Part shown: piece after piece, positions 51,401-52,699 of the stretch | How the letters are laid out: each line of letters begins with the position of its first letter | How positions within the stretch are numbered: position 1 is the first letter of the stretch | Source: Solirubrobacteraceae bacterium | GTDB lineage: Bacteria; Actinomycetota; Thermoleophilia; Solirubrobacterales; Solirubrobacteraceae | Direction of reading: 5' to 3' | DNA length: 64,000 nucleotides | Assembly (NCBI GenBank): GCA_017882455.1 | Contig: JADGPL010000016.1 | Span: 21,898 to 85,897, forward strand | Program-made: the position numbers and the translations under genes | Notes under the pieces: generated by a model | The model's database searches: none | What the model was told of the DNA's origin: nothing | What the model saw: the letters and a program-made list of their open reading frames with translations, nothing else

Positions 51401-51406
51401 TACACT
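51401..51406 (+). promoter_or_regulatory. -10 box for serC-serA leader
   Basis: TACACT about 8 nt before the predicted riboswitch P1 strand. Confidence 0.5.
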
Positions 51407-51413
51407 CGCGTTC

Positions 51414-51490
51414 GTCGTCGCGACTGGCGCTCGGGTGGAGTTCACCACCGGGAAGTGACGACTAGCTGCCGCCGCGCGCCTGGGCACCCT
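51414..51490 (+). ncRNA. ZTP (pfl motif) riboswitch candidate
   Basis: P1 GTCGTC (51414-51419)/GACGAC (51457-51462); GACTGGCGC; P2 GGTGG (51434-51438)/CCACC (51445-51449); P3 TGCC (51467-51470)/GGCA (51482-51485) with loop holding GCGCC (51476-51480), complementary to GGCGC (51426-51430); terminal CGCCTGGGCA. Confidence 0.85.
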
Positions 51491-51538
51491 CAGATCTTCG
51501 ACAATCCCCTCCGGATTAGAACCGAGCGAGGAGCCCAC

Positions 51539-52699
51539 ATGACGACGAGCACCGCAGCGCCCCAGCAACTGGTCATCCCCGACGAGCTGAAGCCCGCTGA
51601 CGGTCGCTTCGGCTGCGGGCCCTCGAAGGTACGCCCGCAGGCGCTCGCGCGTCTCGCTGGGGACGGCGCCGCGGTGATGGGCACCTCCCACCGCCAGAAG
51701 CCCGTCAAGGCGATCGTCGGCGAGATCCGCGCGGGGCTGCGCGAGCTGTTCGCGCTGCCCGATGGCTACGAGGTCGCGCTCGGAAACGGCGGCGCCACCG
51801 CCTTCTGGGACGCAGCCGCCTTCGGCCTCGTGCGCGAGCGCGCGCTGCACCTCACCTTCGGCGAGTTCTCCCAGAAGTTCGCCGTCGTCACCACCGGAGC
51901 CCCCTTCTTGAAGGACCCGGTCACGATCGCCGCCGACCCCGGCGACGCGCCCGACCCTGCCGTCGTCGGTCCAGCCGCGGCCGAGGGCGGGGTCGATCTG
52001 ATCGGCTGGGCGCACAACGAGACCTCGACCGGAGTGATGACACCGGTGATCCGTCCGCCCGGAGCCGACGGTGCGCTCGTCGCGATCGACGCCACCTCGG
52101 GCGCCGGCGGGCTGCCCGTGGACGTCTCTGAGGCCGACGCCTACTACTTCGCGCCGCAGAAGAGCTTCGCCGCCGACGGTGGGCTGTGGATCGCGCTGCT
52201 CAGCCCCGCCGCCCAAGAGCGGATCGCCGAGATGCACGCCTCCGAGCGCTGGATCCCCGAGTTCCTCTCCCTGCACACCGCCCTGGAGAACTCGCTCAAA
52301 GACCAGACCTACAACACGCCCGCCGTCGCCACGCTGTTCCTGCTCGCCGACCAGATCCGCTGGATGCTCGACGGGGGCGGGCTGGACTGGTGCGTATCGC
52401 GCACGCGGGCGTCCTCCGATCACCTCTACGGGTGGGCCGAGCAGAGCACCTACACGACCCCGTTCGTGACCGATCCGGCCAAGCGCTCGCTCGTCGTCGG
52501 CACGATCGACTTCGACGACGCGGTGGACGCCGCGGCGGTCGCAGCGACCCTGCGCGCCAACGGGATCCTCGACGTCGAGCCCTACCGCAAGCTCGGGCGC
52601 AATCAGCTGCGCGTCGGGATGTTCCCCGCCGTCGATACCGCCGACGTGCAGGCGCTGACCGCATGTATCGATTGGGTCGTCGAGAGGCAGGGCCGATGA
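51539..52699 (+). CDS. serC: Phosphoserine aminotransferase
   Basis: [19 protein letters not shown]...[50 protein letters not shown] 51539 with GAGGAG SD; the 51455 start lies inside the riboswitch. Confidence 0.92.

Follow-up and report, generated by a model that had tools for sequence, protein, structure and literature searches.

What does the leader of the serC-serA operon sense in Solirubrobacteraceae, and how might it act on the two genes? A shortage of 10-formyl-THF leads to the accumulation of ZMP and ZTP. A stretch of 64 kb from a genome of this family (here termed the window) was predicted from its sequence to carry a ZTP (pfl) riboswitch in front of serC-serA, a position that would link the supply of serine to the status of the one-carbon pool. 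We have examined the identity of this element, its distribution and the manner in which it may control translation.

A ZTP riboswitch in the leader of serC-serA

When the whole window was scanned against 4227 Rfam families, a single match above gathering score was found. This is to RF01750, the ZMP/ZTP riboswitch (E = 5.3e-7), and it covers the complete model (positions 1-86 of 86). The score is well above the gathering cut-off of 39 bits, and the original prediction is thus borne out by a significant covariance match. A match to the Rfam family sar at 51585-51638 on the minus strand scored 25 bits against a cut-off of 43 bits and was dismissed as chance. The elements of the locus are as follows.

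51401..51406, +, -10 box TACACT; TANNNT is conserved in the family
51410..51492, +, ZMP/ZTP aptamer (RF01750), full length; 58.9 bits against 39
51414..51421, +, P1 5' strand (GTCGTC...); model alignment, with compensatory changes in relatives
51423-51430, +, joining region ACTGGCGC, read in the sequence
51426..51430, +, GGCGC of J1/2, 5' strand of the pseudoknot; pairs with 51476-51480
51434..51438, +, P2 5' strand GGTGG; model alignment and relatives
51445..51449, +, P2 3' strand CCACC; model alignment and relatives
51455..51462, +, P1 3' strand (...GACGAC); model alignment, with compensatory changes in relatives
51471..51473, +, P3 5' strand GCC; paired in 104 of 104 aptamers
51476..51480, +, GCGCC in the P3 loop, 3' strand of the pseudoknot
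51483..51485, +, P3 3' strand GGC, within UGGGC 51481-51485, the proposed switching strand in ligand-free pairing
51488..51491, +, CCUC, proposed anti-Shine-Dalgarno; predicted to pair with GAGG 51528-51531
51528..51533, +, Shine-Dalgarno GAGGAG, immediately 5' of the serC ATG
51533..51537, +, GCCCA next to the serC ATG, putative partner for UGGGC in the predicted fold
51539..52699, +, serC, phosphoserine transaminase; TIGR01366, 619 bits, cut-off 402
52696..54345, +, serA, phosphoglycerate dehydrogenase; TIGR01327, 609 bits, cut-off 454

Every feature that had been named, from the TACACT box through P1, the joining region ACTGGCGC and P2 to P3, is present in the window, and the loop GCGCC is complementary to GGCGC as claimed, giving a pseudoknot of 5 bp. 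Nor is the pseudoknot lost in relatives. Among 104 distinct aptamers of the family, compared in a MAFFT sequence alignment that was not structure-fitted and with related sequences counted as independent, it can pair in all 104, and its fifth pair shows compensatory change, being C-G in 72, U-G in 19 and U-A in 13. In the same set the core pairs of P1 (columns 8-12 with 46-50) hold in 99-104 aptamers, with compensatory changes, those of P2 in 103-104 and those of P3 in 104 with little variation. Judged by sequence and covariance, the element in the window is a real and well-conserved ZTP riboswitch of the known class, and its class membership points to ZMP/ZTP as the ligand.

Promoter and operon

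The sequence TANNNT lies 12-19 nt 5' of the ACUGGCG core in all 105 family aptamers with enough upstream sequence, whereas at these loci the background is 2% for other 29-nt stretches upstream and 0.4% for those in coding sequence. Because its position is so conserved, transcription most likely starts ~7 nt downstream of the -10 box, at the 5' edge of the aptamer. From its sequence, serC-serA is an operon with its own promoter, and that promoter is conserved.

The serC ATG at 51539 lies 47 nt downstream of the end of the aptamer. A longer SerC beginning at GTG 51455 was rejected; its start would fall inside the aptamer, and it is the ATG that owns the Shine-Dalgarno sequence. The two genes overlap by 4 nt (ATGA, 52696-52699), so that the serA start lies inside the serC stop. 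Upstream of the aptamer are ilvC (49716-50723) and, after it, an ORF that matched no family, and leuA (54546-56162) is found further downstream of serA.

A different arrangement is seen where the riboswitch is absent. In nine ZTP-negative genomes of the family with a good serC match there was no Rfam match around serC. In several of these (L215 and L217-L222) serC comes directly after ilvC, and in one from the window's own genus (G099, L215) the stop codon of ilvC overlaps the start codon of serC (TGATG). Genomes that lack the riboswitch thus tend to have serC in the ilvC operon. Separately, one genome without the aptamer (G036, L220) keeps a leader that closely resembles the sequence after the aptamer in G051 (L084), a relative of the same genus, AGACCTTCACCCGC...GGACGTCTGCCCATG, as though the aptamer had been lost by deletion. 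At six glyA loci without a ZTP aptamer (L234-L236, L242, L244 and L248) TANNNT is separated from the likely start codon by only ~7-10 nt, which suggests that these mRNAs are leaderless.

Two targets within the family

The source genome contains a second RF01750 match (G000:C20:100341-100423 on the minus strand, equivalent to L002:1501-1583; 47.4 bits), ~27 nt upstream of the glyA start codon; glyA encodes SHMT (PF00464, 511 bits). The one-carbon gene context of RF01750 is thus kept, by glyA itself and by serC-serA, which make serine, the substrate of GlyA.

The pairing of these targets extends to the family. In a family-wide sample RF01750 matches are present in 71 of 101 genomes, and in 49 of the 62 of good quality, giving 106 sites in total. 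This count is a lower bound, because the glyA leader at L246 falls below the Rfam threshold. By tblastn the next gene is serC at 63 sites, glyA at 37 and serA directly at 4, and serA follows serC at most of the 63. The predicted placement before the serine pathway thus proved to be conserved across the family. The remaining two sites are one at a contig end and one (L016) without an assigned gene.

Three individual loci deserve comment. The L246 leader (G029, near 1360-1460) contains all parts of the ZTP motif, but J1/2 and P2 are separated by a long additional hairpin. L016 (G074:C114:10418-10499) is a third ZTP aptamer in one genome, near-identical to that genome's serC-leader aptamer; neither serC, serA nor glyA lies behind it, and it is possibly a duplicate remnant or an assembly effect. 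A pattern match at L149 was rejected as a leader aptamer, as it falls inside the serC coding region.

Relatives outside the family

When 80 named serC loci were examined, the aptamer pattern was found before serC in only three records, all from Solirubrobacterales (L112, L122 and L135); 20 of the 80 were also checked with Rfam, which confirmed these three. In a phylum sample, 43 of 297 genomes have a ZTP site. We examined 24 such sites outside the family, and neither serC nor serA was found after any of them by tblastn. In 12 the next gene is glyA, and of the downstream genes of the other 12, the four that were tested against Pfam are folD, IMP cyclohydrolase and two Fer2_4/Fer4_20 proteins. 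The class sample adds one genome from a second family of Solirubrobacterales with the order ZTP-serC-serA (L268), together with several ZTP sites before glyA. Among the samples examined, serC-serA is seen as a ZTP context only in Solirubrobacterales.

ZTP aptamers also precede an oxidoreductase-like Fer2_4/Fer4_20 gene at L197, L206, L209 and L211 (same class, family f4) and at L204 elsewhere in the phylum, with two of the five loci tested by Pfam. This gene is possibly tied to formate dehydrogenase.

A proposed expression platform

The original prediction proposed that GGGC in the 3' part of the aptamer pairs with GCCC next to the serC Shine-Dalgarno sequence. In the predicted ligand-free fold of the window, UGGGC 51481-51485 from P3 is paired with GCCCA 51533-51537, and CCUC 51488-51491 with GAGG 51528-51531. 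All folding was performed with ViennaRNA, which models neither pseudoknot nor ligand. The probability of the UGGGC/start-region pairing is 0.96, compared with a mean of 0.14 for shuffled sequences (0 of 40 shuffles as high), and in six other leaders of the genus it is 0.66-0.96. GCCC is also present just 5' of the start in same-genus serC leaders. With the aptamer imposed, the predicted openness of the initiation region in the window rises from 0.27 to 0.56, although an equal gain is seen in 10% of shuffles, and two of the seven genus leaders (L088 and L022) show no gain in accessibility.

Across 57 serC leaders of the family, with related leaders counted as independent in the shuffle tests, the downstream pairing of UGGGC is modestly greater than in shuffles (0.60 versus 0.52, p = 0.013), and the Shine-Dalgarno sequence is less open (0.295 versus 0.357, p = 0.002). 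Its gain on removing the aptamer bases is not significant in these leaders (p = 0.30), and the simple idea that their removal opens the Shine-Dalgarno sequence throughout the family was rejected. Folding thus supports the proposed platform in the window and in the other six leaders of the genus, but its support across the family is weak. The numbers speak for a start site that is masked; they do not prove that it is switched.

We consider the following mechanism most likely. Without ligand, the P3 strand UGGGC would pair with GCCCA beside the serC start, and CCUC with GAGG of the Shine-Dalgarno sequence. On binding ligand the aptamer would reclaim UGGGC, freeing the serC start region. Expression of serC would rise, and that of serA with it through the operon and the translational overlap. 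The glyA riboswitch would join in, so that more 3-phosphoglycerate could flow to serine and on to glycine and 5,10-methylene-THF, and the one-carbon pool would be refilled.

The same riboswitch might instead act on transcription, through a Rho-dependent or unrecognised terminator and not the ribosome-binding site. Termination of transcription is the mode of action of characterised ZTP riboswitches, for example that of F. ulcerans (PMC7484762), and passages in PMC2864571 describe many pfl RNAs that overlap terminators. In the leaders inspected, however, there is no U-run between aptamer and start codon, and with the start codon ~18-64 nt after the aptamer there is little room for a separate terminator; we therefore rejected an intrinsic terminator as the platform. 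The Shine-Dalgarno sequence, moreover, lies inside the predicted competing hairpin, and control of transcription seems to us unlikely.

It is less likely still that the riboswitch is an OFF switch for serC-serA. OFF switching by ZTP riboswitches has been predicted for a tandem moeA example, in passages of PMC9481103, and in the window the predicted opening of the Shine-Dalgarno sequence with the aptamer imposed is small (0.21 to 0.28), because the CCUC/GAGG helix persists. But UGGGC competes with the start-region helix, and an ON switch is therefore predicted; an increase in serine supply would also fit a shortage of one-carbon units. In the passages covered of PMC2864571 and PMC9481103, ON is the usual direction for the class. 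A degenerate aptamer or look-alike that senses something else is very improbable: class membership rests on sequence and structure only, but 24 positions are identical in all 104 aptamers, among them GGCG in the joining region and the greater part of the P3 loop, the pseudoknot is kept and the downstream genes belong to one-carbon supply.

An RF01750 riboswitch that senses one-carbon shortage, acting on serC-serA with glyA as its partner and most probably as a translational ON switch, is thus the reading that we hold with good confidence.

Relation to known riboswitches and biological meaning

The window element shares with its class the helices P1, P2 and P3, the J1/2-L3 pseudoknot, the position in a 5' leader and the theme of one-carbon genes. 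Validation of this class with ZMP/ZTP is reviewed in PMC7266159. The window element differs from the class in its expression platform, which looks translational and not a terminator, and in its target; passages of the literature list purH, fhs, pfl, glyA and folD, of which glyA (PMC2864571) also has a site in the source genome. In the literature passages covered, with the gene list of Kim et al. 2015 outside their scope, serC/serA was not found as a ZTP target. Since the sites examined elsewhere in the phylum precede glyA, folD, IMP cyclohydrolase and an oxidoreductase gene, the class is a known one but its gene context here is new, with the reservation that serC may have been noticed earlier.

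Other RNAs are described in front of the same genes. According to passages in PMC7266159 the serC motif (RF00517), an orphan riboswitch candidate, also precedes serC-serA in other bacteria. It is a separate Rfam family from RF01750; nothing in the window reaches its gathering score, and 51300-51640 has no match to it even at E <= 1. The glycine riboswitch and T-box(Ser) control serC/serA (passages in PMC9481103 and PMC3766115), but their aptamers and ligands differ from those of the window, where the Rfam scan gave no match to either.

Nearly all detectable ZTP riboswitches in Solirubrobacteraceae are thus confined to serC-serA and glyA. We are therefore inclined to the view, with some caution, that the ZTP regulon of this family has turned to the serine route, with one-carbon shortage setting de novo serine supply through a translational ON switch in which a P3 strand masks the start. 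Trimethoprim should then raise SerC, SerA and GlyA together, a prediction that can be tested in cultured Solirubrobacter or Conexibacter. Beyond folate and purine genes, the ZTP alarmone would then reach back to the point where serine, a main donor of one-carbon units, is supplied, and it would do so through a conserved regulon of two targets, serC-serA and glyA.
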